A DNA stretch of 64,000 nucleotides from Heterotrichella gracilis (taxonomy: Eukaryota; Sar; Xanthophyceae; Tribonematales; Xanthonemataceae), in the NCBI GenBank assembly GCA_032358255.1, contig JAULBX010027938.1:124001-188000 (forward strand). Direction: 5' to 3'. Below, piece after piece: positions 9,523 to 63,697 of this stretch (positions are counted from its first letter, which is position 1; each line of letters opens with the position of its first letter). A model generated the notes under the pieces. The model was given only the letters and a program-made list of their open reading frames with translations, had not been told where the DNA came from and made no database searches. The position numbers were made by a program, and so were the translations under genes.

Positions 9523-12500
9523 ATGGGGGACGAAAGCGCTGTTGTCACCGACACATCGGTGGCAGCGTCACTGAAGACCACCATCTCGATGGCCGAGAAG
9601 GTGCCAGGGCCAGAGCGAGCCAAGCTGCTTGATAAAAAGTACTTGAGGAAGACCTTCCGCGAGAAGTGCTACCTGGTCCCCAAGGACTTCAAGGTCGAGG
9701 ATGGCTACAAGCTGTCAGACAACCTGTTTGTGGGAAAGAAGCTGGGGGGCGGAATGCAGGTGCAGTTTGCATAACGCCAACCACCGACCCCCACCGCTCC
9801 ACCTCTGCACTCTTCCCTACATGCTGCCACTCCAGTGCGCACCCCACTTCCTCTTGTTCGGAGCACGCTTGCTTCTCATGGTGAAACCCGTTCAGTGGCA
9901 AGCGCCCTCTGGCTGACTGCTCTGCCTGGCTGCAGGGCGGTGTGTATGACTTGCTGGATGGCGAGGGCAACAAGTCGCCCTGGGTCCTGAAAGTGAGCAA
10001 CCCCGGGGCGGTGCTGGGGGATTTGGAGAAGGAGTGGGCAGTGGGCATGGCGCTAGACCTACTGCAGGACCCCGAAACAGGCAAAATCCCTGGGTTCATG
10101 AAGACCGGCGCCTGCTTGCGGACAGACGACAAAAACCGCACCTTTCGAGGTGCGCTCAAATGTTGCATGTCGGGCCAGCAGCGCATCACGCACTTGCAGC
10201 ATCGTTTGTCATCAGGTTGGCAGATTCGGGCAGCAGCCCTTACATCCGTGTGTTTTATGTTCTGCAAACAAGACTCAGTGTGGGTTGAAGTTGTCAACAC
10301 AACTGCACGTTCCTACATGCTGTTGGAGCGGAAGGAAGTGAATGACACTCTGAGTCAACGTTAGTTTGGTACATCTGTTTCCCGCACTAGCGCCAGATTG
10401 GTTGTCAACCCCTTGTGCAAGCAGGCACCACCTGGCACTGCGTGGACCATCCTTTAACGTTACACGTTTCCAAATGTGGTTCCATGTGCCAGGCATGCTG
10501 CTGGAGCGCATCACCGGGAGGGAGGTGAACGACACCCTCAAGGCGCCCGACTTCCACGACATGGAGTATGTGCGCGACTTCCTGTTCCAGACTTTTGCGG
10601 GACTCATGCGGGCGCAGGAGCTGCTGGGGTTCCACCATGCAGACTGTCGCCTAGTGAATGTGATGGACCACTTTCCTGATTATCCAGACAAATCAGTGCG
10701 TGGGCTGGAACTGAGTTAGCCACTACTGGAACGCGCATGGATCAGCCCTGTGCACCGTTTTTTGCATGGCTGTGGTGTTTTGGAGACCAGCTGTGGGCCA
10801 TCCTGTAATTGCAATTGTAATTGTAGCCTTGTTCCTGCCGTTGCAATTGTGGCCTAGCTCCTGTAATTGTGAATGTACTTATAGCCTTGCCCCTGTCAGC
10901 GTCACTGTGTTCCTGTACTTGGAAGTGTGGCCTTGTTTCTGTGATTGCAATCGTAATTGTAGCCGCGACTCCTGGGCCAAACGTTTTTGCGACCTCGCCT
11001 GCAGACGAGGGAGTTCAAGATCATCGACTTCGGCCTGGCCCAGCTGCTGGACACAGAGTCCTCCGCCATCAAGAAGTTTGGCAGGATGATGAAGAAGCAG
11101 GCCACTGCGGCCAAGAGCCTGGGCAAGGTGTTCATGCACCCCAAGCAGGCAGCCAACGCCACGCTGGACAAGGGCTACAGGTGGGTGTGGTTGATGGGCA
11201 AGGACGCATGTACCAGGGTTTTAAGGTCACAACTTCAGCCCTGGGGATTAGTTGGATGCAGTTGCCTAAACCGGGGAGAGGTTGGAGGTGGGTTGGTGGG
11301 GCATCATTGAACCTGGGCAAGGTGTTCATGCACCCCCAAGCAGGCAGCCATTGCTACGCTGGACAAGGGCTACGGGTGGGCGGCGCGGTGGGCTCTTTGT
11401 GGGGGTCAGGCCGTTTTTTTAGGAGGCTTGCCTGACGAGGGCGGAGGTTTGCTGGGGTAAACCTGTTTTTGAGTTAGCGACCCGGTGGAGGCTGGTTGGC
11501 CCAACCAATGGAAAGTCAAGGGTGGGTCGGTGGGGCACCATGTTGCATGATGCAAAATGCAAGGCAGATTGAGCGCTGGCACACATTGCCATGGCTGGGT
11601 ATGGGATTTAGCACGAGCTTGCCCCAGTATTCAACCATCAACTTGCAGAGGTTCCCATGGGTAGGACATCCTCAAGCCCAAGCCACTGCATATTCCTGAC
11701 ATCAGCATCAAACACCGGATCTATAGGCACCACCCATGTAACTGCCTGCCTGCTTGTGTGGGCCCCCTCCAATTTAAAGCAGTAACAACCAACGCTTTTC
11801 TCCCTCAGGCTGTACTGGATCTCCAAGGGCGATGTGTTCCACCTGCTGTGGTCGCTGCTCAAGGTGATTGACGGTCTGGTGTGGTGCGAGGACGACAGGG
11901 AGTCGGTGGAGGGGCTGGTGGAGCTAGTCAAATACGTGACAGGTAAAGCTTTAAACCCAAACCTAAATCCAAATGTGAGCTTATAACACGAGAGAGGTGG
12001 AGCTGGTCAAATACGCGACAGGTGATGGACAACTAGGAGCACATGCGCCAATGCTTGTTATCAGCGGCTTGGTGGTGGTGTGCTTGGTGGGCCAGAATCC
12101 AGCCACCATGCCAAGGGGCACATCACGAGTCTGGACAAATGCATATTGGACATCCTCCATGCACCCGTGCTCTGGGGTATGGGGTCAGCAGTTTGGCCGT
12201 GGTGATAATTCCGTACTCGACTTTGCAGGGGTCAAGGTTCGGACCTACTTTGGGCCCCGGGGGCCGGATGGCAAGGCGCAGGTGCCCGATGTGAAGGGGT
12301 GTGGGCACGTGTTCTACCGCAAGGACTCAGCTGTGCTGTACGGCATGAGGCGCTTCAGGATAAGGTGCGGCCTGAGAGTAGCACTCCAATCTCATCCTGA
12401 GATCCCAATTTAAGCCTGCATATCAGCAAGGGGAAATGGCATACTTTTTTTGCTGGCAACAGAGCCGTGCAGACAAGCAGTTGTGTAGGCAGGCAGTGAA

Positions 12501-13172
12501 TGCAAATAGCTTCTGAGAGACTTTTTCCATGCTGGAGACTTTTTTCATGCTGGCTGGAGTGTAATCTTGCAGCAATTCGTGGTTTTTTGGAAGGTAAGCA
12601 TCCTGCTGGCATCTTGGCATTACAGCAGTTTGGTGAAAGGTGCTTTGAAGGCTTATGAATTCAGCTGGCATGGCGGCTTGTGTATGTTAGCTTTGGGGGC
12701 CTGGAGGTGAGGAGGATGACAGCATCTTGTTGAGGAAGGTGTCCACACAGGCACTGTTCCTGAGGGTGACATATTGAGGCACATTTGTGGGCTGCAGGGT
12801 TTCTTGAGCACACCAACTGCTTTGCAATTAAGGCCCTGGACTTCGCGTCCTAATATGTAATTATATGCTTTGTTACATCTTATTTTTATGCTTTTGTACT
12901 TGTTATTATGTTCCCTTCTTTTAATATTACTGACCACCATTTGCGGTCATGGCTGCAGGCTGCAGGGCTTCCTAAGCCCGCCCATGCACACCAACTGCTC
13001 CGCCCAGAAGGCCCTGGACTTCAAGTTCTTCGACCCGCTGCGCTCCCAGCTGCCCACCTTTGACGTCACATACGACGACGACGACGATGATGACGAGGAC
13101 AGCAGCACAGCCGAAACAGCCTCACAGGCACCAACCATCCCCACACAACCCGTGCAGCAGGCTGCAGCTTGA
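9523..13172 (+). CDS. Atypical protein kinase with HAD in place of HRD and acidic C-terminus
   Basis: Kinase-fold protein of 437 residues; family not recognised, although compact CK1/VRK-like kinases are the closest in style. Seven exons: 9523-9759, 9936-10149, 10493-10695, 11005-11180, 11809-11942, 12229-12364 and 12959-13172, with consistent phases. Visible kinase landmarks are a glycine loop KKLGGGMQGGVYDL across the exon 1-2 join, the VAIK-like WVLKV, a following EKEW glutamate, the catalytic loop HADCRLVN (HRD replaced by HAD, the usual lysine by arginine, the Mg-binding asparagine kept) and an intact DFG in IIDFGLAQ. The downstream half is helical, and the last exon ends in a poly-aspartate run and a Ser/Thr/Gln-rich tail. 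Catalytic Asp, Asn and DFG survive, so activity is possible. Introns 2, 4, 5 and 6 hold echoes of neighbouring exons (listed separately). The ATG at 9523 opens the only long frame. Confidence 0.82.
10315..10353 (+). repeat. Echo of kinase exon 3 start in intron 2
   Basis: A degenerate copy of the beginning of exon 3 (the MLLERxxGREVNDTL coding segment at 10493 onward) lies 177 bp upstream inside the intron. It lacks the ITGR codons and runs to a stop soon after. It was probably made by tandem duplication. Confidence 0.75.
11312..11380 (+). repeat. Echo of kinase exon 4 end in intron 4
   Basis: About 68 bp closely matching the 3' end of exon 4 and its donor (11118-11186), with few differences, lies 194 bp downstream of the original. 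It still carries a GGTGGG-like donor region. Confidence 0.9.
11994..12024 (+). repeat. Echo of kinase exon 5 end in intron 5
   Basis: About 28 bp repeats the exon 5 end and donor (VELVKYVTG codons, 11917-11944) with two or three changes, about 79 bp downstream. Confidence 0.8.
12789..12849 (+). repeat. Echo of kinase exon 7 start in intron 6
   Basis: A diverged copy of the exon 7 acceptor and first 60 bases (true exon from 12959) lies about 170 bp upstream, with small deletions and a stop in the exon frame. The GCTGCAGGG acceptor context is conserved. Confidence 0.82.
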
Positions 13173-14790: not shown

Positions 14791-17531
<2,741 letters not shown>

Positions 17532-18229: not shown

Positions 18230-21200
18230 ATGGTGAAGCCCACGGTGCCTGTCCTGACCTATCAGGATAGGACCCCTCCCTTCGCTGCGCTTGCCACTGC
18301 GGCCCTGATATCAGCAGCCATCGAGACCAAGCCAGACTCCAAACTGGCCAAAGATGCGCCCCCTACCCTGGTGCTCCCTACAGGGTGGGTGCCAGTGTAG
18401 TTTCACAAAACATGCATGCTGTTTGGTGGTATTGAACGCTATTGATAGCTGTGGTATGTCCCTGCATAAGGCAGTATCCTCCCTTGCCGCTGCCTAGCCT
18501 TAATGCTTCCTACAGGGTATGGTGGCACAATGGTTTCAAGTATGTATGCTGTTGAGTGGTGCGGTGGTATGTCCCTGCTAATAAGTAGTATCTCCCTCGC
18601 TGTTTATCCCAGGGATGAGTTCTCTGGGACCGCGCACATCCTGCGCTACTTGGCCAGGAGCAGTGCCTCGACAACCCTGTATGGTACCGATGCCATCTCT
18701 GCTGGGCAGGTGTGTGCAGGGTTCCTGGCAACCCTTAGCAGCACAGCAGCATAACAGCTAGCGTGGCGCATGCCAGCGCGCACAGCTTGCTTTAGGGTGT
18801 AGGGTGTAGGGTGAACAGCAAGCGTTGCACCAGCGTGCGCCACTTGGTTTAGGGTTTAGGGTTCAGGGTGAGCAGCCAATCTTCACAAATCTGACCCTCG
18901 ACCATAAACCCTCACCCACCGCAGGTGGACCAGTGGCTTTGCAACCCTAAACCCTAAACCCTCACTCACTGCAGGTTGACCAGTGGCTGGAGTTTGCCCC
19001 CTCCCTCGTGGCTGGCGCCACGCTGGAGGCTGCCTGCACCATCATCAACCAGTACCTGTCCATGCGCACCTACCTGGCTGGCTACTCCCTGACCATCGCA
19101 GACATCGCCTGCTGGGGGCAGTTGCAAGGTAGGTCCTCGCTTGCATTGTGATCACTGTGACCATCTGTGCACCAGGCATCCTGCAGGGGCATACCAGGGG
19201 CAACAGCACAGTGACACAGCGCAGTGGCATCAGGGGTGAACTGAATGCACCAACTTAATTCTACGTTTTTTGTATAGCTACCATATAACTTACGGTGTAG
19301 CTTACGGTGGTGTATCAGTATACAGATACACTGGCATCTGAATCTGGCACCTGACCCCCAGGCACCCCTCAATGGGACAAGCTGAAGAAATCAGGCGGCT
19401 TCCCCCACCTGCTGCGCTGGTATGACCACTGCAACACCGACCCCACACTCACCGAGGTGGCGGAGCAGCACAGCACAAGGCGGAAGCCAGCCAAGCCGGA
19501 TGCCACTGCTGCCGGCGCCCCTGCGCAGAACGGCAAGGGAGGAGGAAGTAAGTTACCCTCCGGGGTGTGAAGACGGTTGCCGTGTGTACCAAGCAGCAAG
19601 GGAACGAACTCCAATAAATACAAATCCGGCTTTGCTGGCCGAGAAGTGATTCATAAATTCTTTAGAAATTACAGCATATATACCTGGACAAGGTCACAAT
19701 TGATGATGCATCATTCATCATTCAAGGGTCACACATGCATCGGCCACCATTCAGCGTTAAGATCTGTCCACCCATGCTCGGGCTGGCACCTGTGGCGAGG
19801 GATGTGTAAGGGTGTAGGGTTTGTCCCAAATTTGGGTAGAATTGGGTCTACGTGATCCATGATTCCTTGGCGCATGGCTCAAACCCTACCCATGTACATG
19901 CAGACACCGGCTCCTTTGATATCGACCTGCCGGGTGCCTCAGAGAGCACTGTGGTCACCCGCTTCCCACCAGAACCCTGCTTGCACAATAACCACTCAAT
20001 GTCTCAATATCCTACAGGTTGTAGAATACAAGTTTAGGGGATTAAACTGACTTTTGTGGGGTATGATTCCTTGGCGCATGGCTAAAGCCGCATCCCTGTA
20101 CCTGCAGACACCGGCTCCTTTGACATCGACCTACCGGGTGCATCAGAGGGCACTGCGGTCACCCGATTCCCACCCGAGCCCTTTGGCTACCTGCACACCG
20201 TGCGCTCAGTAGATACGGGTTTAGGGTTTAGGTGATTCACCTCGAGTGTCTGTGAAGTACAATCCTTGGCGCATGGCTGAAACCCAATCCCTGAACCCGC
20301 AGACACCGGTTCCTTTGACATCGACCTACCGGGGGCCTCAGAGGGCACTGTGGTGACCCGCTTCCCACCCGAGCCCTCCGGCTACCTGCACATCGGCCAT
20401 GCCAAGGCCGCGCTGCTGAACCAATACTTTGCCAACATGTACAAGGGCACGCTCATTGTGCGATTCGATGACACCAACCCCAGCAAGGTGAGACGGGAAC
20501 GCGGGTGCACTAAACCTTAAAGGGATCTGGTTTTCCGTGCGGCAGAGCAGACATGCGGTTGCAGGTGCCAGCACCACAGCCGCCCACATCCACCCACCCC
20601 CCATCCCTCACAGGAGAAGGACGCATTTGTTGAGAACATCCTGTCGGACATTGCCAGCCTGAGTGACCTAAAATCAAACCAAAACCCTAACCCAAATACC
20701 CTCTAAACCCCAAAAACCCAATCCCACAGGAGAAGGACGAGTTTGTTGAGAACATCCTGTCGGACATCGCCAGCCTGGGCATCAAGTACGACCGCCTGAC
20801 CTACACTTCGGACTACTTCCCGCAAATGATGGACCTGGCTGAGCGCCTGATCAAGGCTGGACACCTGTACGCGGATGACACGCCGGTGGACCAGATGCGC
20901 GAGGTGAGCTAAACCCTAAACCCTAAACCTGATGCGGGAGGGGGAGGAATGGCAAGTGTTAATGATCCCTCCCCTCTTCCCCCCCCCCCACCCACTCTCA
21001 CAAGCTAATGTACCCACTACTGTGCACGCCCACCCAACCCCCACCCTTAAATAGGAGCGCGTGCATGGCAGCAAGTCAGCCTGTTGCAACCCACCCTGCA
21101 CTCCACACCCCACCTGCGCAGAGGCACAAGAACAGCCCTTGCATTTCTGTTCAGCGCCTCTCCACCCCGCACCCACCACCTTACCACCCCACCCTCCACA

Positions 21201-24200
21201 GGAGCGCATGCACGGCATTGAGTCCGCACGCCGCGGCCGCCCCGCTGAGGAGAGCCTGGCCATCTGGAAGGAGATGGTTGCAGGCACTGAGGAGGGGCTC
21301 AAGAACTGCCTGCGATTCAGGATGGACATGCAGGTGGGTCGAGAAATAATGCAATAAAGTTGCGAATCATGCGACTGGTCTCTTTACCATCAGATATGAC
21401 TATTGCATTGTGCTGGACAACCCAGGTGCTTATCGCCTGACAAGGCGCTGCATGTGCCTGATGCCTACCGCTGGTATAACTTAAAGAGCTAGTCAATTAA
21501 TTTTTATGATATGTATTTTTAAACATTTTCCAATGCTATAGCCTGGCTTTTCATCCTTCAGTGTAATCTTCTATTTCTCTATTACGTTCATGATCATTGT
21601 TGTTCACTTGCATCTGTTCGTGCAGGCCCCCAACAAGGCCCTGCGCGACCCCGTGGCTTACCGCTGCAACCTGGTGCACCACTGGCGCACGGGGCTCAAG
21701 TACAAGGTGTACCCCACATACGACTGCGCATGCCCCTTTGTGGACTCCACTGAGGGGGTCACACACGCGCTGCGGACCTCGGAGTACAAGGACAGGGAGG
21801 TAAGATATGGGAGGGAGGGAGGGGAAGAAAGGTAACGCATGCGCTGCATCTCTGAGTGCATGAGCAGGGAGGCGCAATATGGTAGGGGGCGAGGGGAGGG
21901 GGGGGGCGGGAGGGGATGACGCACACGCTGCGCACCTTTGGTGCAAGGACAAGGAGGTGCGGTGTGGGTATGGGGTGGGTATGGGGTGGGTGGGTTGTCG
22001 CACGCAAGCTTTTGATTATTGTTACTATTATTTTGTTACTCTAATGGCATCCCATGTGGCCCGACCATTATCAAAATTCTCCCACAAAGCAAGGGCGTTT
22101 GTATCGTATCTTCAGATTCCTCCCCTCCAGCTCAGCAGCATCGCATCCCCGCCTAATTCCCTGATGTCCTCCCCTGCAGGCCCAGTACTACCAGATCCTT
22201 GAGATGCAGCAGTCCGTGTGGCCGGGCCTGCCCAAGGTGCACCTGTGGGACTTCTCGCGCCTGTCCTTCGTGTACACGGTGCTCTCCAAGCGCAAGCTGA
22301 CCTGGTTCGTGGAGACGGGGAGGGTGCCGGGGTGGGACGACCCGCGCTTCCCCACTGTCCAGGGCATGCTGCGCAGGGGGCTGCAGCTGGAGGCGCTCAA
22401 GGAGTTCATCCTGTCGCAGGGCGCCTCCAAGAACGTCACCCTGCAGGTAGGAAATTGGGCCCGCCTCCGCCCCACCCACAGACACCCCCACCAGTGCTTC
22501 GCTAAAGTTACGAAACCTTGGATGCCTGATATAAAAGGATTTATTCTGTAATCTGATAAATGGTGAAAATGGATCAACAAGTGCATCATCGTAATTTAAA
22601 ATAAAACTGTACGTTAAACACAATGTTTCATGCACCCTGCAGGAGTGGGACAAGATCTGGACCATCAACAAGCGCATCATCGACCCCGTGTGCCCCCGCC
22701 ACACAGCCATTGAGGTGGCTGGCAGGGTGCACATGCACATTACAAATGGGCCCCAGGACCCCGAGGTGGTCATCTGCCCACGCCACAAGAAGTACCCCCC
22801 GGCGGGCAACAAGGCCACCACGCGCAGCCAGGTGGGGGTAGGGGGTGGGTGGGTGGAAGTGTGGAGCAGTCTTGAGAGGGGCGGGTGGGGCTAAAGACGT
22901 GACGCTGGTTAGGGTTTGGGTGGTAGTGTTGCAAGGCTGTATCTTTCATTCATCATGTAGTAGATGGTGCATGTGGGATTTACTGTGAGATTTTGTTCAT
23001 GAATCTGATGTGCGTGGTCAAATAATACAGGTGTATGTGTTTCTGATGACGGCTGGGAATGCCTTTCTAATTTGTTTGTTTGTATTTCTGACTCGAGTAT
23101 TGCCATGCTTCAGGACATCTGGCTGGAGCAGACTGATGCGCAGGCTGTGACTGAGGGGGAGGAGGTCACGCTCATGGACTGGGGGAACTGCTTCGTACGG
23201 GTACGCACACTTAAGGGGGGGAAATTCCTAAAAATAAAGTTCACAATGTTTGAAGGGGAGGCGGTTATGCTCATGGACAGCAGGAACTGCTTCATATGGA
23301 TACGCATAAATAAGGGAGGAAACTACATAAAATAAAAAATAGTTGGTCTTCGTGTCTAAAGATACTTGCAGGCGTGAAGTGGAGTGAATTCATGACGTCG
23401 CGCTGTGCTAGTTGCAAAACAGAGCTGGAAGGGGAAAGCCTTGCTAGTCATTGCTCCTACTAAGCTAGTCACCAGCACTTTTGACTGCCGCTCACACCCA
23501 CGACCCACCCGCAAAAAATCACGCGTGATGAGCAGGGCGTGGTGACTGCCCTGGAGGGCGAGCTGCACCTGGAGGGTCTCTCGCCTAATCCCAAAGCCCT
23601 AAACCCAGCCACTCCCTTCCACATGCACCATCACGCTCTTGTCCCGCCCACAGAAACATGCATCTCCTAAACCCACATACCTGAACACCCCCGCCTCTCC
23701 CGCAGAAAGTCACGTGCGACCCTAATCCTGCATACCTTACCCCCCTCCCGCCTGTCTCGCAGAATATCAGCCGCGACGAGCACGGCGTGGTGACAGCCCT
23801 GGAGGGCAAGCTGCACCTGGAGGGTTCCGTGAAGACCACAAAGCTCAAGCTGACGTGGCTGTCCTCCGCTGCCGAGCTGGTTGACCTGGTGCTGGTTGAC
23901 CTGGGCTACCTCATCACCAAGCCCAAGCTGGAGGAGGGGGACGAGTTTGAGGACTTTGTCAACCCGCAGTCGGTGGGTGGTGGCGGGTGACGGGGTTAGG
24001 TGATGGTGGGATGGTGAAGGGTGACGTGATATTGTATATCCCATATTTTCAGAATAATAGAAAATGCACTGTTTCGGTGCAGCGTTTTGAGGCCTATACC
24101 ATGGGCGACGCCAACATGCGCACCGTGCTGAAGGCTGCACCATTGGAATGTATATGAAGTATTTACACTAATGGCATTTTTGAAAATTTACCAGTTTTAA

Positions 24201-42781: not shown

Positions 42782-42879
42782 CAGTGCTGGTGCCCTTAAC
42801 CACATCGCTTCAAGCAGTGCCCAGCAAGAGCCCTAGCCTACCGGGCACAGGCTGTTTACTCCACCAACAGCTCAAGAGG

Positions 42880-48700: not shown

Positions 48701-51700
48701 GTGGGTGCAAGCACAAGGCTGGCACCCCCACCCCCCCACCACCTCACCTCACCACCACCTCATCCCCCCACACCAACACCACCCCCACCAGCATCCCATG
48801 CTTCCAGCACATGCTCCAACCACCCACCTTGAGCACCATGGCAGAGTCCTGGGGCCCCATGTCCCCCCCCGCCCGCTGCTGCAGCTCCTCGCACAGGGTG
48901 GCTGCAAAGTCCAGGCTGGCGCCCGGCTGCCTGTCCAGCTCAGCGAATGCCCACACCATGGTTGCCAGCTGGCGCACCTCAAACAGCTGGGGGTTGTTGG
49001 TGACCCGGAGGGACACAGTTTCGATGAGGCCTCGGGCGAAGGCGGCGGGGTGGTGCAGCCTGCGGGGCAATAGCAAAACGCATTAGGCTTAGAGGTTTAA
49101 TTGGTTTGGTGGATTTGGGTTTGCGACCAACTATTGTGCTAGTATGTGGGAACGGTGATTGATTGGAGCCCGGGGATGCGACAGGGTGATTATGAAAAAT
49201 GGTGGTGCAGCCTGCGGGCAACGCAGACAATGTTAGGGTTCTATAACGACAAGCTAATGTGCTGGCATGTGAAGGACATGGCTCTAAGCGAGTGGGTTTC
49301 AGACAAGAGCTGATGACTAATGATGTTTTTTCTAGTTGAACTGATAAGGAAATATAACACTTGGTATAAATCAATAGTCAGGGTAAAAGTACTGTTTTCA
49401 CATTGGTTGGCTCAGCTCCACTGGCTGAAGCTCATGTGCCCTTGCATGCAACGCCTCCGAAAGCCCATCAAACCATTTTCAATTTAAAAACAATCCATTT
49501 ACGGTAATTCATTCAACAAACATCCACGGATGAAAGGAAAACATTATGGCTTTACGGCTTTCAATCCAACCACCCCCACTTACTTCCCGTACGCCCACAT
49601 CAGCTGGCTGAGCTCCATGGGCTTGAGCTCATGCGCCCTGGCATGCACCTCATCAGACAGCCGGTCAAACAGGGCCGGGGGGTAGTGGCCCAGCGTGGCA
49701 AAGGCAAACGCCAGGTTGGCCAGCTCCTGACCCTTGAATAGGGTAATGGTGGTGCGGCAGCGCTGCGCGGCGGCGTCCAGGAGGGGCGTGGGGGGGCCAA
49801 AGTTGAGCTTGGCAAATGCCCACAGCAGGTTGGCTATGTGCTGGGGCTCAAAGTCGTCAAGCTTGTCCAGGGCGGATTGCGCGCTGGCATTGAGGAGCGC
49901 CACGGGCCTGGGAAAGGGGGTGGACGGGTGTGAGGCGCATTGGCGGCGATGTGAGAGGGGGTGGAAGGTGAATGAGACAAGGTGGCGGTGACAGCAGAGG
50001 GATGTAATTCAGCAACGCCTGTGTGACCATTGTACCACGAACGAAAATCAGATAACCCCTCTACAAACCTTCCATCACACCCACCAAAAAACCTGGCAAG
50101 CTGCCGCCCGCGCCGTGTTCCACAACGCCTGCAGGTCGCACTTGTCCACCACCTAAACCTTAAACCCTCACCTGAACCCTAGCGTGCTGAACGCCCACAC
50201 AATGTTGGACAGCGCCTGGGGATCGCACTTATCCACAACCTCGCTCGCGCTCGCAGCCGCATCCTTCAACCACAGATTGCTCGGCCGGTGCCCCAGCTTA
50301 ACCAGCGCCCACAGTATATTGGACAGCGACTGTGCGGCCAGGTTCCCTAGTCGGGGTTTCAGGTTGGCGGTGACCACGTCTAGGGTTTCTGCGGGGGGTT
50401 TCCAGTCCAGCTTGGCGGTGGCCCACAGGACTGTGGCGAGGGACTTTCCGTCGTACCGCGCCACCTGGCTGTGGAGCTGCAGGTGGATTTGGTCCAGCAG
50501 CGCGTGCGGGTAGAAGCTGAGCTTGGCGCATGACCACGCCACCTGCGGGTGTGTGGGTAGGGTTTAGGGTTTAGGGTTCACGGCTTATGGTGTGTAGCTG
50601 TGAGTGGATCTGGTCCAGGAGGGGTAGAAGCTGAGCTTGGCGCATGACCACACCACCTGCGGCCCCACCCGGGTGGGTGCAGGGCAGGGTTTAGGGTAAT
50701 GCGGGTTGGATGGTGTTCAGCTGAAAGGTGCATGAATGGGTGAATGAATGAATGAATGAAAGGTGACTGAATACATATTCCAATGACAATCTCCAATGGA
50801 AATCACACGAATCCATGGGCCAACCAACCAGCGCCATGCAGGGCTGGTAAAACGACAATCCAACTCTTGTGACAAGGATGGTGAGAGCAAATGGTAGAGA
50901 TACCCACCCTTGCTATCTGCTCCGGAGTGAAACTATCAATCTGCTGCAGCACCAAATCGGCCGCCGTCTGGTTTTCCATTCTTTTTAGTTATGAATTCTC
51001 CTAATATTCACTAACGCAATATTTCATGTGTGATGATGCACCACAACAGCCCACCTGTGGGTGGCAGGCTTTAGTGGCATTTGTTTAGAGGCATGTGACA
51101 AGGGGACCCACCCTTGCTATCTGCTCCGGAGTGAAGTTATCTATCTGCTGTAAGACCGAATCAGCCGCAGTCTGCAGCAGCAGCGGCGAGCGGGGCCCGT
51201 AGCGCGCAAAGGTGGTTAGGGTAATTGACAGCGCGTTAGGGTTGAGCGTCTGCAGGCGGCGCGAGTACCACACTTCTGAGGCCTCCAGCAGGGCCTTCGG
51301 CTCCATATTGATTATTGAGTAGGAAGTCATGAGCCTGCACATGCAAAGGACGGTGTCAGGGATTTGTGCATCGTGGCTGTGACTATCTGTACTAAAACAG
51401 AGTGATATGTCCCAAGTGTGTCCCACGCATACTTCATCCTGCTGCCTGGTTTCTTTTCCTTCATAATTCTCGACTCTCCCATGAAAGCACTCCCAGGGGT
51501 GGGACTCAAGTTATGGGTTACAATCCACTTGACGCAATTGTGCATGGCTGCCTATAAACAGCTTTGCAAGTAGAACACCTGCCCCCTCCTTTGTCCACTG
51601 TGGTGCCCCTGCTTATTTCCACCCACATGGTCCCGCAGGTGCGATGCCGCAGGTTGATGATGGCATTATGTGCCCAGCATCCACAAAGGACGGTGAGGAC

Positions 51701-54700
51701 CACACGGCGTGTTGCAACTACTAGGACCTGTGCATGCATATCAGTTAATGCAAGGCCTTGAACCCACCTCAAGATATCCTGGGACTGAAAGCTATCCACC
51801 GTGGCAGCTGCCTGGGAAGCCAGCGCCTCAAATAGGCCCTCGGGCTGGTACCCGTATTTGGAGTACGCTCGGGCCACATTTGCGAGGTCCCGCGGCTGCA
51901 ATTTGGCCACATTTTCCACCAGGGGCCCCGCCAGGCTGACATATAGGCCCTCCTCGAAGTAGTCCAGCCGGGAGAAGTACCACAGCAGGGTGGCTAGGGT
52001 TTTGGGGCTTGCGTTGCGGCGCCACTGCATGCAGGTGGCTGCGAGCTGCGACAGGGCAGCGGTGCCTGCAAGGGGAGGGGTATTAGGGTTCAGGATTTCG
52101 GGTTTAGGGCTTAGGGTTTTGGGCTGGTATTGCAGCGCTACTGCATGCATGTGGCGGCAACCTGGGACAGGGCAGCGAAGCCTGCAGGAGTAGGGTATTA
52201 GGGTTTAGGTTGATAGCTGAGGGTTAGGGTTCAGGGTAAAGCAGATCGCCAGGAGGCAAAGCCGAACGGGGGGGCAATGAGACGGAGCCAAAGGGGGCAT
52301 GACAGCAGCAGCACGAGAGACCTCTGCAAGGGTTTGGTAGGGTTTGCTAGGGTTGTGTGTCGTGCCTGGGTGCAACTCCAGTGGCTGGAATGCCGCCATG
52401 AGCAGTACCAGCTCCTCTGCTCCCAGCTGGAAGTAGTCCTCCCTTGCCTGCATGACAGGGGTGATGGCGGCCACCAGCTGCTTGGGGGAGTGGCCCGCCT
52501 TGGCGAATCCCCACAGCAGCCTGGACCACAGGAAGGCCATGGGTAAGCACAGGTGGCGGGGCGGGGGCAACAGCTAAAAAACCTCCTACGAAAAGCATAT
52601 CCCCAGGCATATCCACTTCAAACTCTTACTAAGGTATGAGCTGCTATCATGTTGCCAGCATGGGACGTGGGGGAGCAAAGGTGGGAAAAACGCACTACCA
52701 CTAGAATTCCTTCTCCAATATGCTACTGCACTTTCGCTGCAGTACCGGTGCATGCACGCACCGCACAACGTCCTTGATCCCCATCTGCCCTGCCTGGCCA
52801 ACCACCAGCGGCTCCGCCAGCTCAGCGACGTCCCTTGCGCTGTGGTCAAGCACTCCAAAGGCCCACAGCAGCGTAGCCACGTCAGGGGCATGCACACCAA
52901 GCGGGTGGGCATGCGCATGCGTCCCCACTACCACCCCCTCTCCTTCCGATCCCCCGCCACTAGTGTTGGTGGTGGTGGTGGAGGTGGTGTCGGCATCCAA
53001 AAGCACCTCCAGCGCTGCATCGTGGAGGTGGTCCAGGAGGGGGCGGTGGGGGAGGCCCAGGGTGGCGGCCGCCCACGCGCCTCGCACGATTGGCTGCAGG
53101 GCGCATGGCAACAGTCTTGAGCTTGGTGATAGGGAAATACTATTCATAATTAGTTGCCATGCGAGAGCCTGGCGAGCAAGACGTTCACCGGCTCTGGAGC
53201 TGGATTAATTCGTGTTTCAAAATGGTGTGAAAGACTGCGATGAGCCTATCCATCCCACGTGTTGGACCAGCCATCATGTCAAGTGCACAACGCACGGAAT
53301 GCTCAAAGCCAAATGTATAGCGCTCACTTCAGGATGCGGTGATGTCAATCTGATGGGCATGGTCCAATCCGCACGTTGGGTGGATAATACAAAATCAATG
53401 TACAATAATTACATTTTTTATAATGCCAGTAAGTATAATGCCAGTAAGTATAATTACATTTTTTATAATGCCAGCAGAATCCCCTATCCTGGTATTTGAC
53501 GCACCATGAGGCTCCCGCCGCTGCCCACGCCCCCCGCATTGGCCGCAATCCAATCCACCAGCTGCGCTGACGGGGCAAGCTGCAGCCTGGCCAGCTGATA
53601 CAACACCTCCAGTGCAGCCTGCGCATCCGGCACCCTGCAAACCCCGGCACCGGCTTCACCACCCTCCCCTGTACCGCTCTCCCCATCAGGAACCCAGCCA
53701 AGCCCAACATTGGCTTCACCTCCCTCCCCTATACTACTCGTCCCCCCTGTGTCTGTGTATAAGTCTGTGGCTGTGGCAGTGGTTGACCCTATGGCTGTGG
53801 CTGTGCCAGTGGCTGTGGCTGTGGCTGCGACCGCAGCTTGCAGTTCGGCGCTTGGGCTGTGGTGCAGGTGTGCCAGGGAGGACAGCGCCGCCGAGAGCGT
53901 TGCCCAGGGGACGCTGTGGTCGTGTATGGCTGCCACCAGGCCTTGGTCCACCGCTGCAATCAGCACTGCTGGGCTGTGGTTGAGGGCGGCACACGACCTG
54001 TGGTGGCAGGGGAGATTAATGAGTGATGAATGACAGTGATAAGTGATCGCGTCACAACCCTAAACCCTAAACAGTGATGGTGGGACACGACTTTGGCCCC
54101 CTGTGGCGGCAGGGGACCCTGTGCCGGGGGAGAGTGATACTTGCACCCTCAGCAGTACGACTCCTTTAGTTTTAGTGGCGCTTAGTTCCTTGGGCCACAA
54201 CTAAGGTTGCAACGCCAGGTGCCAGCGCCTCGCCCACACCTTCCAAAGGTGTGATGGTGAGGGGTGGGGGTGGCATGCAGTTCAGCACTGGCGATGCAAA
54301 TGGCGATGCAATCGACGATGCAATTGCTTGTGCCTGCATGCCTGCCAACGTGGTTTTGCGCAAGACAATTCACAGCAGTTGAGGGCAACATATCAGCAGC
54401 ACTAGCAGTACACCCCATGCGAGCGGGATGCAGCAATGAACCCAACATGTGGGACGACAACTACCTAACCGGTATCCAACGCACTGTTGTAAGGGTACAA
54501 GTCAAGGTGCTTCACACAGGGTGCCAATTGCACACACCCTTGTTCAACAAGCACGCTGAGTGCGCTATATTGAGTGCGCTCTTATGGAAGTGGAAGCAAG
54601 CAAGCTAGTGCAAACTCACCCTAGTATGGCTACCAGCTCACTCCAGCACAGCTCGCCCAGGTGGTGGTGGAGCTCCCCCTCCAGCTCCCCAAGGGTGTTT

Positions 54701-56000: not shown

Positions 56001-59000
56001 ATGACCGATGTGAAGGGCAGGCAGGCGAGCGCTGCTGGCACCTCCGAAGGGTCCAAAGGGTCTTCAACCTTCAAGGTCAGCGCGGTCCCTTTCGTGCCCA
56101 GCAGCGCCGCAGCCCCCAAGCCCCCCTCCATACAGGGCGCAGTCAACGCGAAGGCTTTCGTGCCGGGTGCCGTGCACAAGAGCGCAAGTGCGAGTGTGCT
56201 CAACAGCGCAGCGGCCAATGCAGCGCCCTTCGTCCCCGGCTCAGGTGACAGAACGCATTCAGCGCCCGCGCATCTCAAAGCTAGTAGCATGGGACCCCAT
56301 TGGCGCATGCATGCATTAGTGGTTGGTGAGGGGTACGCGTTCCAGCAATACAGGGTGGTCAATAGTCTGCACTGCATGCCTTTGCGCCAGCCAGGACTGT
56401 CCTGACACTGCTGTTACCGCCTCGCACAAAGCAAGGCAGCACTACACTTCCATGTGTTCTCTCTGTGCGCCCTTTTGGTGCACTTCCCACTGGCTGGTGG
56501 TTCACGTGCAGGGGCAAGCTCCAGTCAGTCCGCCGCCTCACGAGCCGTAGCAGGCATCTCAGCCGCTGCAGCACCCTTTGTCCCTCGCGGGAACGATGCA
56601 CCAGCGAGAGGTGCGCCCCGCACCCTAGACTAGGGTCCTTGTACCAACCCAACCCAGTTGTCAGGGAACCCTCCTCGCCACGCTTCAAGGTTTTCACCCA
56701 AAGCCCTGTGTTTTACCATGAAGCGCATGGATGTACTATTCTGTCGGTGTCACTAGTTCAATGGTTTGCACCTGTGGTTCGGAAGGTCGTCCAAGTAAGT
56801 GGGTAACCCCGCCATCTGCTCCTGTTATATGCACCTTGCGCGCAGTACCACGCCCCTGGTCCAAACCCTAAAGCAAACCCTAAAACCCCTTGCTCTGCAT
56901 TCCAGGTCGGGGCAGAGGCCGGGGCGTGGCTGCCGCCTCTGCCACTGCGCCAGGCGCAGCCGCAGCCGCCAAGGGGGACCACCACCTCCCAGATGGGGAT
57001 GACCTGCTGGGGATGACTGCGCACGATGGGTCCCCAACAAAGCAGGCAGCGGAGGCAGCCATGGGCTTTTTCTCACGCTCCGCCACACCCACGTCGCCCT
57101 CGGGGTAAGGAGCCCCCCCCCTTTGGCTGAGCGGAAAACTGTATGCGGAAAACCCATGGATCTACCTTTCATCCCCGCATGCAGTTAATTGCATCCTTAA
57201 ATTTCTTTACCTGCAACCCCTCCAAAAAACAAGGCTAGCAGCCAGCCTCGTAATGGCCCCGGGGAGGTCCTGTCATTGCTTGTACCATATCTTACTGCTG
57301 ACCTTGGGGTATTGCTGGAATGCATCTCGGTGTTTGACTAACCGCACGCATACACACTCACACCCTTGCAGTCGGAAGCCGGTCCCCGCATACGGGCGGG
57401 GATCCCCCCGCACGCGCGGCGCACCCCTTGTGCCGGCCTACGCCTCCCGGGGACGGGGACGGGGATTTGAGCGGGGACGGGGGCGGGCGCGGGGGCATTT
57501 CACCGGCTACAGTGGATCTACATTGGGGGGCATGGGGTTTGGGGGCCCGCCCATGGGGGCCCACCTGCCGCCGGGCCGCACGCAGCTGTCGTCGTTTTTT
57601 GTCGCGGAGCGCGTGCGCCAGGAGCTGCAGCAGAAGAGCTACTTGACGCAGGCGCAGGTGGGTGGCATGATGGTGGGTGGAGGGAGGGTGGGAGGGGGAT
57701 TGGGTAGGAAATTGGGGTGGCATGAGGATGGAGCATCTTTGATTGGTGGCAGCACCTTTGATTGGCATGATGCAGCGAAACCCTACTGAATGGCTTCGCC
57801 AAACCCTACATATCAACCAGGTCAACCGAAAACCCTACCCTCAACCCTCACCTCGTGCAGGTGAACCCTGAGACCGACGGCGACCAGGGCCTGCCCGACA
57901 TGATCCAGCAGTACCACACGCTGTACGCTCTTGAGGACCTGAGTGGGGCTGAGGAGAGCCCCAGCCAGGCATTTGGCATCCGCACATCGGTGGTGAAGGG
58001 AATCAGCGCGCAGGACGGGCACGCGTATGCGCTGCGGCGGATAGATGGGCGCCAGGTGGGTGTGGGGAGGGTGAGGATTCTTGGACTCTTGGAAACACGG
58101 ATATTGTCCTGTTCACATTAAATAATAATTGTATTCGATTACTTTCGTCAGTCAATTACTTCTAATTTAATTGGTTTCTCCATCCCCCTTTCCAGGTGAT
58201 CCCAACCGGCGAGCTGCTCCAGGCCGCCCTGGACACCGTGGACGCCTGAAAAGTAATAAATATATATGTCAAATTTTCGGAGACAGAAATCATCCATCCA
58301 TCCCCGCAGGTGATCCCCACCGGCGAGCTGCTCCAGGCGGCCCTTGACACTGTGGACGCCTGGTCTGCCGTGGCTGCGCACCCGGGGGTGGTGCCCCTGC
58401 GTGGCGCATTTGTGAGCCACGAGGTTGATGGCAATGCATCGCTGTTCATGGTGTACGACTACGTGGCGGGCGCGGTAAGAATAAACACCGAATTTACAAA
58501 ACCTATCTATTTTGCATCATGGCCACACCCTCGAGGTGTAGTTCCAATGGTGCCCACGCATAATCCATCTACTCATACGCATAGGTGGATGCGACTCAAC
58601 GTGCATAGAAGTTGTGTCAATCTACATTCAAATGCTTTTAAACCCTAAAACCCTTAAATATGGGGGCGAATGAAAGACAATTGTCATCTCACACACCCAC
58701 CCCTACCCCGCAGCTGACGCTGGAGCAGGCGCACGTCAACCCCACCACCTCGGCCGCCGGCCTGTCCCGCAACCCGCCCTCTGAGGACCAGCTGTGGTCC
58801 TACCTGGTCCAACTCACCGCTGTGTTGAGGGTGGTGCACAGTGCGGGGCTGGCCCTGCGCCCCTCCTGCCTGCTCCCTAGCAAGGTGCTGGTGAGCAGCG
58901 CGGGGAGGGTCAAGGTGGGGTGCTGCGGTCTGGTGGAGGCTCTGCATGCGGACGCGGTGGGGAGGGAGGACGGGGCGCAGGCGCAGCGGGAAGACCTGGC

Positions 59001-60641
59001 GGTGCGTGGGTGGGGTTGATGTAGGGCTTCTAAGGTGGTGGTGTTAAGGGTTTTACAGGACTTGGTTTGGGCTGCATACAGACACGGTGGGGAGGGAGGA
59101 TGGCGCGCAGGCGCACCGGAAGATGTGGCGGTGCGGGGCCTGTGGGTGGTCATATGGTGCATGTGGTCTTGGGTACACGTCACCCGCATGCCAGTGTGAC
59201 TCTGTTGCCCCTAAATGCCACCCACTCAACACCACCCCGCTTTATGTTCCCACATGCTTGCTCACCCACACACATGCACCCATCCACATCCGCCCCTTGT
59301 ACCCCTTGCTTGTACCCCCCCGGGCCTATGCCAGCAACCTAAACCCTGAACCCTATTTCTTCAGGGTGTGGGTGGTCTGCTGCTCACCCTTGCTTGTGCC
59401 AGCAACGGCGTCATCCCCAACCTTGACTACCTGGCAGCGCACTTCTCGCCTGACCTTGTGCGCACAGTGGCGACGCTGCTGGGGAGCGCGGAAGGTGCGG
59501 GGGTTAGTATATAGATTGTTTTGTTGTGGTACAGTATTTTATTTCACCGGTAATGAAAGGGTGGACACCATGGCAGGGGATGTAGTACTAAAAAAAACCA
59601 AATAATAAAAAACTCCTTTGTACTGTTCATTGCCAGGGAACGCCAAGGAAGAAGATTGAGTGTAAAGATTCAACTCAAACCCACCGTTTTTAATTAATCC
59701 GCCCCCCCCTTTTCCGCAGGCGGGGTTCTGGGGAGCTGGCGGGCGCTCCAGTCTGCGCTGGGCGACCGCGTGCTGAATGAAGTTGACACCATGACCGCAT
59801 ACTCAGAGGGTGTGCTGGGTGAGCTGTCCAAGGAGGCGGACAACGGGAGGGTGCTGCGGCTGCTGGTGCGGCTGGGCACCATTGTGGAGCGGCCGGAGGG
59901 GGATATGGACCAGCAGTGGGCAGAGACGGGGGACAGGTGGGTTGCGGTGGGGATTTGGCTGGCGTGTTGTGTAGTCATGGCTGTTTTGGCATGGTGTGGA
60001 AGTGCTACTGTCAGTGGGATTTGCACTTGGGTCGTGGTGGGTACAACGGGAGGTGCTGCGGCTGCTGGTGCGGATGGACACCTTTGTGGAGCGGCCGGAG
60101 GTGGATATGGACCAACAGTGGGCGGAGACGGGGGACAGGTGGGTTGCGATGGGGGGGTTGGAATGTGTGTTGTGTAATAGTGGCTATTGTGACATGGGGA
60201 GTGGGAGTGCCACTGTCAGTGGGAAGTTGCATGTACGTACTGGTGGGTACAAGGAGAGGGTGCAGCGGCTGCTTGTGCCGCTGGGTAACCCCTATCCATG
60301 CAGTGCCAAACAGGCCTGTCCTGACACCGCCTGTCCCAATTCTGAATTTCCTCTTACCCTGCCAAAACCCCAGGTACCTCCTCAAGCTCTTCCACGACTT
60401 CCTGTTCCACCAGACCGGCGAGGACGGGGCGCCCATGCTGGACTGGGGCCTCCTCATGGAGGCGCTGAACAAGCTTGATGCAGGGGTGCCCGAGAAGATC
60501 CTGCTGCTCAGCCGGGACGAGCAGTCCATGCTGGTGGTGTCCTACGGGGACGTCAAGCGCTGCATCGAGCGGTGTTACGGGGAGCTGACCGCGCGCGCGG
60601 CGCGCATAAAGGCGGGGGTGCGCATGGAGCGGCACCGGTGA
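56001..60641 (+). CDS. PAN3: PAN3, regulatory subunit of the PAN2-PAN3 poly(A) nuclease
   Basis: Dimeric adaptor that recruits the PAN2 deadenylase to mRNA; 696 residues. Ten exons: 56001-56244, 56512-56610, 56906-57104, 57372-57657, 57861-58055, 58310-58474, 58714-59001, 59365-59494, 59720-59936 and 60374-60641, with agreeing phases and total. The N-terminal part has repeated PAM2-like motifs (FKVSAVPFVPSS, VNAKAFVPGA, NAAPFVPGS, ISAAAAPFVPRG) for poly(A)-binding protein, then Arg/Gly-rich GRGRGRG and RGRGRGFERGRG patches. The classical N-terminal CCCH finger is not seen. The pseudokinase follows (QQYHTLYALED, ALRRIDGRQV, FMVYDYVAGALTLEQ; no HRD or DFG), then the coiled linker and the diagnostic C-terminal knob YLLKLFHDFLFHQTGEDGAPMLDWG...LNKLDAGVPEKILLLSRDEQSMLVVSY. 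The ATG chosen is the last before the first PAM2-like motif. Introns 5, 7 and 9 hold echoes. Confidence 0.93.
58189..58250 (+). repeat. Echo of PAN3 exon 6 start in intron 5
   Basis: Acceptor and 50 bases (VIPTGELLQAALDTVDA) are copied almost perfectly 116 bp upstream, ending in an in-frame stop directly after DA. The copy's splice acceptor (TTCCAG) looks usable. Confidence 0.96.
59069..59139 (+). repeat. Echo of PAN3 exon 7 end in intron 7
   Basis: About 65 bp repeats the exon 7 end (HADAVGREDGAQAQREDLA) and its GTGCG donor, 130 bp downstream. Confidence 0.92.
60045..60285 (+). repeat. Two echoes of PAN3 exon 9 end in intron 9
   Basis: A 105-bp copy (60045-60150) of the VLRLLVRLGTIVERPEGDMDQQWAETGDR end with donor and intron start lies 202 bp downstream. 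A partial third copy of its beginning is at 60239-60285, 207 bp further. The intron body between copies is repeated too, so this is a tandem array of about 205-bp units. Confidence 0.95.
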
Positions 60642-62243: not shown

Positions 62244-63491
62244 ATGCAGTCACCTCGCTTGGTACCCACCTTGGCATGCGCCTTGCTCCTGGCAGCATGC
62301 GGGGGGGCATGGGCCCAAACCGTGGGCATACAGACCGTCACAAAGACGTACCGCAAGTTCACATCGGAGGACGATGACCCAGCCTGGGTGGATGGCAAAG
62401 ATACGCTTTCCGACCTTGGATACAACATGACGTCAGTTGAAGTGGGCCCTCCAGGAAAGCTGGTGACCTTCCTATCCACCCCCTACGGCAGGATGAGCAT
62501 CCTGGGCCTTCCACCCCTGTTCTCGGCAGATTTCTCTTCGGACTACGGCATCCAGACGGTGTGGCCCTACTGCAAGTCCAAGGAGGAGTGCCCCATGTTC
62601 ACCCAAAAGGTACTTACCCTAGTCGGGTTCAGTGGCGTCTAACCCTCCACCTCACAAGCATTCCTGTTGCCACTCTTGTTGTGTTATTGTAGTGCGTTGA
62701 CAGCAACAGCTTTTGCGCCAGCATGGTGGAAAACTTGTGGAGAGCTTGTGGAGGACTAGCTTAGCAACTTGTGGAGAGCTTGTGGAGAGCACGCTTGAGG
62801 CACAACTGTGCGAGGTTGACCCTAGCCTAGGGTTTAGGGTAAGCGCAATTTGGCACACTGTTACCTCACCAAGGGTTTGGAGACAGTGTGCCCACCTGGC
62901 TTACAGTCGAGATTACAAGCGTACCCCTGATGAGATGCATTGATTGATATTGGCCATCCGCCATGTACTTTCGGGTATGCGTGGTTCCTTGCGTGCATAC
63001 CCCGCCACTACTTGCCTGCCAAGTGGGGCATACAAACCTCTGTCCAACACGTTGCAACTGCCCTCTGATGCAACCTACATCACCCTCTTTTCTCGCAGAC
63101 CAACACCCTGGCAGCATCCCCAATCACCGTGCTGCTCCCCAGCGGGGTGTCCGCCATCGACTTCTACACAGACATCGCCATAGACTGCGAGTCGGTCCTC
63201 TCCATCACAGCGGTCTGCAGCGCCACCGCCCAACCAGGCAGCGTCAACATCACCACCAGCCTGGAATCCATTTGTGGGTCGCCTAAGGTGGGCTCCTACT
63301 ATGGGTTCTACAACCCCTCGGGAGCGATTTCCAGGGTAACGATTAAGTGTGGGAGCCCCTTCCCTCGGTGCCTGGGGCTGATGCGGCTGGGTGTGTTGCC
63401 TGGGCAGGAGGTGGCAGGGGGGGAGTTGGATATGGATGCAGAGGTGCAGGCGGCTCTGGAGGCTGCAGGGGCGGAAATCGCAGCGGCTTGA
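62244..63491 (+). CDS. Secreted protein of unknown family
   Basis: Two exons, 62244-62609 and 63099-63491 (phase 0 join, GTACTT donor, TCTCGCAG acceptor), giving 252 residues. A clear signal peptide opens the protein: MQSPRLVPTLACALLLAACG followed by GAWAQ, with likely cleavage after AWA. The mature part is Ser/Thr/Pro-rich and probably beta-sheet, with cysteines spaced through both exons (WPYCKSKEECPMF, AIDCES, AVCSAT, SICGSP, IKCGSPFPRC) that could form disulfides, and NMT/NIT/NPS-type sequences of which NMT and NIT are N-glycosylation sequons. The tail (ELDMDAEVQAALEAAGAE) is acidic and helical. I do not recognise the family; an extracellular or cell-wall role is inference. The 3' end of the CDS is duplicated downstream. 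A TGTAA word, the usual green-algal polyadenylation signal, lies at about 63890. Confidence 0.8.
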
Positions 63492-63579
63492 AGGTCCAAA
63501 TGGGCATTCCCCGCAATATTTTTTGGCAGCAATCCTGCGAAGTTGGTGTGAACAGCCGAGCGCCTACATTTTGACCTTG

Positions 63580-63697
63580 AGACTGATGCGCCTGGGTGTG
63601 ATCCGTGGGCAGGAGCTGGCAGGGGGGGAGTTGGACATGGATGCAGAGGTGCAGGCGGCCCTGGAGGCGGCTGGGCAGAAATCACAGTGGCTTGAAG
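63580..63697 (+). repeat. Echo of the secreted-protein CDS end in its 3' flank
   Basis: About 115 bp repeats the coding end (LMRLGVLPGQEVAGGELDMDAEVQAALEAAG) and the stop region at high identity, 205 bp downstream, beyond the stop codon. Confidence 0.95.

Follow-up and report, generated by a model that had tools for sequence, protein, structure and literature searches.

We analysed a 64,000-bp stretch of DNA from Heterotrichella gracilis (contig JAULBX010027938.1, positions 124,001 to 188,000; hereafter the window), in which the introns of several genes carry degenerate copies of the edges of their own exons. An earlier note on this sequence had described such exon-edge echoes, and we confirm that they are real. 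The copies lie close to the original and in direct orientation, and they take in the splice site together with the exon edge. They are probably non-functional scars of exon-intron junctions that were duplicated, locally and recurrently, during the repair of broken or stalled DNA. To the earlier reading of the echoes we add a second feature, which is that in about half of the pairs the DNA between the copies contains telomere-type repeats (TTTAGGG or CCCTAAA), and that the orientation of these repeats tends to follow their position in the intron. It has long been asked how introns lengthen and what supplies their new sequence, and live examples are few. In the present case a single 64-kb window holds 39 repeat pairs whose exon parts are 76-100% identical and in which the filler and its polarity can still be read.

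Exon edges are copied into their own introns

The window is eukaryotic nuclear DNA in which we modelled 13 genes, interrupted by 65 spliceosomal introns. We aligned every exon edge, taken as up to 150 nt, with the intron next to it, and the introns of other genes and the own reverse complement served as controls. At a score of at least 35, 24 of the 130 own-intron alignments gave a match, compared with 0 of 7,496 other-gene controls and 0 of 130 reverse complements. At a score of at least 25, the own introns gave 29 matches out of 130 where the control rate (73/7,496) predicts 1.27, and the reverse complements gave 4 out of 130. This was the comparison that the earlier note had put forward as its refutation test, and the intron similarity proved to be specific to the own exon.

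Introners or intronic transposable elements were considered as a source of the copies and rejected. There is no dispersed family: the other-gene controls were empty at the higher score, and a strict self-search of the window found only 3 direct and 0 inverted matches beyond 5 kb. Homology between protein repeats, a candidate source in the case of the RAP gene, was likewise set aside, since the echoes are specific to the own exon and are also present in the kinase, GluRS and PAN3 genes.

Comparison of the window with itself, which makes no use of annotation (E ≤ 10), bore out the claim that exon edges with their splice sites have been duplicated locally, directly and recurrently. Forty-five direct matches lay at most 600 bp apart and none lay at 600-1,200 bp, compared with 2 inverted matches within 600 bp. 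Among the 45 direct matches, 35 joined an exon to an intron, 1 joined an exon to a 3' flank and 3 joined two exonic segments, while 6 were intron-only and 0 were intergenic-only. The strict self-search gave 28 direct matches at distances up to 500 bp and 0 from 500 to 5,000 bp; its 2 inverted near matches were both palindromes. Both sides of the junction are affected, in that donor copies contain the exon end followed by GT and acceptor copies contain AG followed by the exon start. The homologous copies, exon edge included, are 18 to about 200 bp long. Templated insertion in random orientation was rejected on the ratio of direct to inverted matches, which was 28:2 in the strict search and a raw 45:2 in the looser one.

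We list 39 repeat pairs in the window, two of them intron-only (18448, 18753) and several of them short, and 26 of the 65 introns carry a copy. The earlier count of about 35-40 places agrees with this list when copies are counted. Pair lists were curated by hand. The 39-pair list splits merged array matches and includes three pairs recognised by eye (10311, 18894, 21046). It omits one 21-bp intron match, the 3' flank pair of the secreted-protein gene, a whole-exon duplication (two matches), one exon-exon match and three matches from a minisatellite in kinase intron 3. That minisatellite-like tract, at 10803-10964, consists of TTGTAATTGTAGCC repeats and is among the few intron-only local repeats. 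In the tests described below, the intron-level link between echoes and telomere-type motif used a closely similar list of 39 pairs, the test for motif between copies used 30 pairs, and the decay test used 31 exon-copy pairs. The copy that had been singled out as almost perfect, at PAN3 'exon 6', is probably the one near 58.2 kb, which belongs to exon 5 in the present models. Its identity is indeed high, and at 92% over the exon part (49/53) it falls a little short of that description.

The echoes are concentrated in few genes. Five of them (kinase, TRM61, GluRS, RAP and PAN3) carry copies in 25 of 42 introns and the others in 1 of 23 (p=1e-5), this last being a 20-bp match in one of the four introns of a gene at 42.6 kb. 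The statement that echoes occur in nearly every intron of a gene fits GluRS (9/12) and RAP (8/11), fits the kinase less well (4/6), and does not extend to PAN3 (3/8) or TRM61 (1/5). The region from 24.4 to 45 kb contains one weak echo (43.0 kb) plus an exon duplication at 38.6-39.0 kb.

Introns with copies have a median length of 359.5 bp, compared with 225 bp for introns without (p=2.5e-5). When the repeat periods, which total 5,573 of 20,642 intron bp, are subtracted, the echo-bearing introns drop to a median of 180 bp against 225 bp, a slight reversal (p=0.019). The duplications have contributed to intron length. The earlier note had proposed a route to both intron growth and intron gain; the first part stands, and since no new intron position is shown, the result is one of growth without demonstrated gain.

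Telomere-type repeats between the copies

Telomere-type 8-mers (TTTAGGG/CCCTAAA) occur 205 times in the window, compared with 9.7 times in shuffled sequences; the motif is of the plant type, from which the host's own telomere sequence may differ. According to one report, TTTAGGG-type repeats also mark the ends of scaffolds in one dinoflagellate (PMC7789003). By location, 171 of the 8-mers are intronic, 29 intergenic and 5 exonic. The motif covers 7.0% of intron bases in echo arrays and 9.5% between copies, compared with 1.7% of the other intron bases of these five genes and with 0.2-0.3% of exons, of intergenic DNA and of the introns of the remaining genes. The enrichment in echo arrays over the remaining intron bases of these genes (7.0 vs 1.7%) had p=0.0027 in a rotation test. 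In 16 of 30 pairs the DNA separating the copies contains the motif, and at the level of whole introns it is present in 15 of 26 with echoes vs 6 of 39 without copies (p=0.0009).

The orientation of the motif changes along the intron. Read in the sense of the gene, clusters of CCCTAAA and TTTAGGG stand at 14:1 in the last third of the intron, 6:4 in the middle third and 4:7 in the first third. A polarity test in which orientation was flipped per intron gave p=0.008 over 21 introns, with CCCTAAA lying towards acceptors and TTTAGGG towards donors; this test and the exonic-motif test given below were framed after inspection of the data. The main trend matches what telomerase would be expected to produce by extending the two 3' ends of an intronic break. 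There is a bolder reading, which we offer tentatively and consider unlikely as it stands: in this lineage transcribed splice junctions would be recurrent sites of breakage or fork collapse, telomerase or copied telomeric RNA would cap the ends, and rejoining would duplicate the exon edge. On the same tentative terms, TTTAGGG would mark the donor side and CCCTAAA the acceptor side, and such introns would amount to healed 'chromosome ends' placed face to face. The clearest picture for capping is GluRS intron 2, where the order from donor to acceptor is TTTAGGG, TTTAGGG, CCCTAAA, CCCTAAA, and the clearest exception is GluRS intron 4. If capping took place, the polarity of intronic telomere repeats would be a record of intron growth.

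Motif clusters also occur at 33466-33495 and 35241-35266, in stretches without a curated gene model, and a TTTAGGG block at 2761-2775 precedes the start codon of the TPT-family transporter gene by about 80 bp.

Origin and decay of the copies

The scar explanation can be put as a series of steps. A DNA break, or a fork restarting slightly upstream, would double an exon edge together with its splice site, in direct orientation. Between the two copies further DNA would be inserted, often a telomere-type repeat, perhaps added by telomerase where a 3' end lay exposed. Whichever copy preserves a continuous reading frame would remain in use, and the other would turn intronic and decay neutrally. Two copies, once formed, could at some loci expand to head-to-tail arrays of 3-4 copies, and the net outcome would be longer introns. 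The patterns themselves are observed; that broken DNA under repair or restarting forks gave rise to them, that the filler came from telomerase and that transcription caused the genic bias is what we infer.

The strongest rival, possible though on the whole not favoured, is ordinary neutral tandem duplication with random breakpoints, from which purely intronic or junction-crossing events survive. Copies of constrained exons would stay recognisable longest, so that exon echoes would stand out in the absence of any special mechanism. This rival accounts for the direct orientation, for the decay and for the multi-copy arrays, and tandem duplication across a boundary is known from potato, as reported in PMC4974935. 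By simple arithmetic, periods of about 120-200 bp in introns of about 225 bp also mean that most survivors should cross a junction. However, neutral duplication predicts neither the telomere-type filler nor its polarity, and it fits poorly with intergenic DNA. The window comprises about 16,690 bp of exon, 20,640 bp of intron and 26,670 bp of intergenic sequence, and although the intergenic portion exceeds all introns combined, 0 of the 45 direct matches are intergenic on both sides. Such duplicates would be detectable: simulated intergenic copies were recovered in 60/60, 60/60, 54/60 and 47/60 cases at 16, 20, 25 and 30% divergence, over a baseline of 2/60. Duplication at the rate seen in introns would predict about 50 of them, a figure that overstates the certainty because events cluster by gene.

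The architecture of the loci bears on the same choice. Multi-copy head-to-tail arrays are found in GluRS introns 4 and 8, in RAP introns 8, 10 and 11 and in PAN3 intron 8, and intron sequence is clearly common to their units except in GluRS intron 8 (48-70%) and in the oldest units. The remaining pairs were examined with a partner test: a unit equal to the period would require that the sequence between the copies be matched again beyond the copy. Over 18 pairs this match was weak, with a combined p=0.005 yet just 3 of 18 pairs below 0.05, and such residual intron similarity is in favour of neutral duplication. Against it, simulation at the divergence of the exon parts (16%) showed that the score of the supposed intron partner falls below the 5% point of the expected scores in 16 of 16 non-array pairs, and at 25 and 35% divergence this was still the case in 14 and 10 of the 16. 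The simulated set is the 18 pairs minus two with spacers of at most 22 bp, and it includes GluRS donor 8, which comes from a three-copy locus and for which the test is less fair. BLAST homology in the 16 pairs stops 0-13 bp past the exon end and in three still within the exon; RAP exon 6 and a few others show weak traces of longer homology by eye.

To judge from their sequence, the single copies look like edge-filler-edge structures, as expected from staggered-break repair or from fork restart with filler. Alternatively, the missing intron partners may have been lost through later rearrangement. The earlier note had described tandem duplication running through the junction and including intron sequence; this fits the arrays of GluRS intron 4, RAP introns 8, 10 and 11 and PAN3 intron 8, and is not supported for the other pairs, 16 of 16 at 16% divergence and fewer at 25 and 35%.

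A second rival, which we regard as doubtful and which partly overlaps the scar explanation, reverses the order of events. Interstitial telomere-type repeats (pyrimidine-rich, branch-point-like or telo-box) would have come first and supplied short homologies for slippage or unequal exchange, which would then have duplicated whatever lay between one motif in the intron and another in the exon. In arrays the motif does belong to the repeated unit, and CCCTAAA is found on the acceptor side, where pyrimidine richness is of use. In RAP exons 4 and 9, moreover, the exon-side end of an echo falls no more than 3 bp from a telomere-type 8-mer, which applies to two of the five exonic 8-mers (binomial p=0.009, post hoc). 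Set against this, just 2 of the 31 echo ends have such an exonic motif, and in 14 of 30 pairs the DNA separating the copies is free of the motif.

Decay of the copies is roughly neutral and close to the pattern that a free copy set beside a constrained exon should show, with change along a single branch at codon positions 1-2 and along nearly two at position 3. Over the 31 exon-copy pairs, mismatches at codon positions 1, 2 and 3 amounted to 50/581, 46/580 and 110/573 (8.6, 7.9 and 19.2%); a net frameshift is present in 11 of the 31 copies and a stop in the printed reading in 4. Identity of the echoes is graded, as the earlier note had said, and events of several ages are therefore likely. We also considered whether the copied exon parts are under selection and dropped the idea for want of a consistent sign, the exon part being the more similar in RAP intron 8 and the intron part in RAP intron 10.

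It is very improbable that the copies are functional, whether as alternative or mutually exclusive exons or, through tandem acceptors and donors, in regulated splicing. An open reading is retained by many of the short copies, and five copies were at first called in-frame exons by our gene finder (GluRS 2, RAP 1, PAN3 2) before being removed by hand, which is a caution for gene annotators. The window also contains one true whole-exon duplication, in which an exon with its introns is repeated in tandem (38593-38694 / 38886-38987, minus strand; period 286, 77%) and both copies are open and in frame. The echoes, however, change at codon positions 1+2 at 43% of the position 3 rate, far from a coding constraint on two copies, and the frameshifts and stops point the same way. 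The GluRS protein built from exon bodies aligns with solved GluRS over residues 199-720 (543 bits), with no insertion at the eight exon junctions in that range and small insertions elsewhere (junctions placed by eye), and the choice of the used exon copy is thereby supported. An assembly or sequencing artefact is more improbable still: it would be expected to give near-identical copies and to ignore exon edges, whereas divergence between the copies is graded, spans 0-24% in the exon part and includes indels, which makes assembly duplication unlikely.

Several observations weigh against the scar explanation or its telomeric component. Telomerase cannot explain everything, since the 14 pairs mentioned above lack the motif between their copies. 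Within the five echo-rich genes the link between motif and echo is weak (15/25 vs 5/17, p=0.066), and six other intron-bearing genes of the window have echoes in 0 of 19 introns. The polarity has exceptions: in kinase intron 4, TRM61 intron 3, GluRS intron 6 and RAP intron 3 it is CCCTAAA that lies close to the donor, and in GluRS intron 4 it is TTTAGGG that lies close to the acceptor. A filter imposed by splicing could also yield the polarity, because TTTAG resembles an acceptor and CCCTAAA is pyrimidine-rich. The codon-position ratio of 0.43 is below the roughly 0.57 expected, by arithmetic, for a fully free copy, and weak constraint on some copies is therefore possible. The order of events, finally, is not visible in the single sequence of one window.

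Each ingredient of the scar explanation is known from other systems. Tandem duplication is reviewed as a route to intron gain, classically from an AGGT repeat (PMC3443670), and in a potato RNA-dependent RNA polymerase (RdRp) gene the duplication is reported to cross an exon-intron boundary, with splice signals mostly inherited from the parent junction (PMC4974935). Like the echoes, these cases involve direct duplicates of gene DNA, which in the potato gene span the boundary, and a direct-orientation duplicate that adjoins its original is a trait of the Rogers model that is also seen here (45 direct vs 2 inverted). The difference is that such duplication is described as creating a new intron, whereas here many events in few genes lengthen existing introns, often with filler. 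New introns of Daphnia are described as carrying 4-17 bp direct repeats, taken as footprints of staggered double-strand breaks and proposed to lengthen young introns (PMC4202315). Common to both are direct repeats, within introns or at their ends, that can be taken as staggered-break traces, and direct repeats flanking filler are present here as well, with a spacer that is mostly non-homologous to the intron beyond the copy; the copies here are longer (18 to about 200 bp) and take in the exon edge. Repeats of 4-30 bp in direct orientation that pair the two borders of one intron have similarly been read as traces of insertion or break repair (PMC11782384). They resemble the echoes in lying near intron borders, but here it is the exon edge that is copied within its own intron.

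Two further comparisons concern the filler. In mammals, short interstitial telomeric sequences are described as inserted at breaks, sometimes with added sequence, target duplication or head-to-head repeats; in the horse, duplication alone was given for 3 of 66 loci and duplication with deletion and addition for 2 more, and 31% of human interstitial telomeric sequences lie in introns, which fits a random spread (PMC7215372). Insertion of telomere repeats at breaks, sometimes with direct target duplication, is the shared element. Unlike those sequences, 171 of our 205 motif 8-mers are intronic, concentrated in duplicated exon edges. Fill-in at 3' overhangs by CST-guided Pol alpha-primase is reported to produce small tandem duplications in human and mouse induced-break assays (PMC8355091), a route to small direct duplications at breaks by way of a complex that is also active at telomeres. 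The abstract and introduction of that work mention neither telomere-repeat filler nor introns, both of which are present here. A full-text search, judged on titles and abstract openings and with most subscription journals outside its reach, gave no report of exon-edge duplications with telomere filler among the matches listed; the ingredients are known, and it is their combination that is without a report among those matches. If the pattern holds genome-wide, duplications of splice junctions could be dated, ordered and counted, and a role of telomerase could be tested.

Gene models and catalogue of echo sites

Gene models were obtained with a self-made splice-aware gene finder trained on the 64-kb window and were then corrected by hand, in the course of which an antisense reading of PAN3 was discarded. 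GT-AG borders are found in 63 of the 65 modelled introns and GC-AG borders, less certain, in 2, with the GC donors at RAP exon 3 and at exon 1 of the 42.6-kb gene. For a RING-CH model the acceptor is about 2 bp off and the frame is not clean, and only its junctions were used. Of the 13 proteins, 10 were submitted to Pfam and 8 gave matches: CDC50, TPT, kinase (below the curated cut-off), GCD14/TRM61, GluRS, FAST_1 (in the 'RAP' gene), Pan3 and FHA. The zinc-finger and secreted proteins had no match in Pfam. The RAP domain itself was not matched in Pfam either, and 'RAP' is retained as the label of the earlier note. Repeat proteins of the RAP/FAST type are common in green algae.

Searches for relatives outside the host gave little. 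No relatives of PAN3 or GluRS were confirmed in viral contigs and none of GluRS in prokaryote genomes, where TRM61 had six distant archaeal matches that were not used; none of these searches brought up an orthologous eukaryotic gene from a relative. The telomere-plus-acceptor pattern had 0 matches in viral contigs, 8 kb of the RAP region had no match to plasmids, and Rfam and tRNA scans of the window found nothing. The echo sites are collected in Table 1.

Table 1. Exon-edge echoes in the window, with position, strand and repeat characteristics (periods in bp; percentages are identities).
Site	Position	Strand	Characteristics
Kinase exon 4 end with donor (11115-11185) and intron 4 copy (11309-11380)	11115..11380	+	period 194, 91.7%; copy with 1-bp frameshift
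Kinase exon 5 end with donor and intron 5 copy	11917..12023	+	period 79, 92.9%
Kinase exon 7 start and intron 6 copy (12797-12844)	12797..13022	+	period 169-178; 84% over 12808-12844, extended by eye
TRM61 exon 5 end (15509-15548) and intron 5 copy (15334-15373)	15334..15548	-	90%; telomere-type motif between
GluRS intron 2: TTTAGGG block (18846-18863), copy of exon 3 start (~18894-18938), CCCTAAA block (18943-18962), exon 3 start (18975)	18846..18988	+	
GluRS intron 4: copies of acceptor with exon 5 start (19859, 20063) upstream of the one used (20303)	19859..20395	+	~204-bp units with telomere-type motif; copies 80-87% overall, 89-90% in exon part
GluRS exon 6 start (20717-20777) and upstream copy (20599-20661), with CCCTAA-rich filler between	20599..20777	+	90%
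GluRS exon 8 end with donor and two intron 8 copies	21752..21958	+	periods 74, 79
GluRS exon 11 end with donor and intron 11 copy	23152..23336	+	period 99; intron part copied too
GluRS exon 12 start and intron 11 copy	23510..23825	+	period 248; filler with CCCTAAA
GluRS exon 13 start and intron 12 copy	24078..24274	+	period 140
RAP exon 12 start and two upstream intron 11 copies	46005..46302	-	periods 122-123; exon part 98%
RAP exon 11 end with donor and copy	46541..46656	-	period 69
RAP exon 11 start and intron 10 copy	46768..47067	-	period 249
RAP exon 10 end with donor and TTTAGGG-type tail, two more copies	47446..47805	-	periods 123, 135
RAP exon 9 start, three upstream copies, CCCTAAA-type repeat	48344..48646	-	period 86-87; copies end at exonic AAACCCTAG
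RAP exon 7 end and old intron 7 copy	49399..49670	-	period 197, 77%
RAP exon 6 end, old intron 6 copy, TTTAGG-type filler	50105..50241	-	period 87
RAP exon 6 start, CCCTAAA filler (50558-50578), upstream copy	50470..50662	-	period 114-121
RAP exon 5 end with donor and intron 5 copy	50902..51174	-	period 204
RAP exon 4 start, upstream copy, CCCTAA filler	51995..52209	-	period 117; copy ends at exonic AAACCCTAG
PAN3 exon 5 start and intron 4 copy	58179..58362	+	period 114-118
PAN3 exon 6 end with donor and intron 6 copy	58942..59138	+	period 129-130
PAN3 exon 8 end with donor and intron, one full and one partial further copy	59840..60284	+	period 203-206
Secreted-protein gene end and 3' flank copy (63378-63498 / 63583-63702)	63378..63702	+	period 205, 88.4%

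Three other features of these genes and their neighbours may be recorded. In the GluRS protein, Pfam places a GST_C-like domain (residues 106-163; 18975-19547) on the N-terminal side of the catalytic one. The zinc-finger gene model contains, in its intron 3, a 55-bp near-perfect palindrome at 29107-29161 (94.5%). Inside RAP intron 10, at 47153-47362, lies an imperfect palindrome of about 210 bp that is 72% self-complementary and resembles the hairpin of a miniature inverted-repeat transposable element (MITE).

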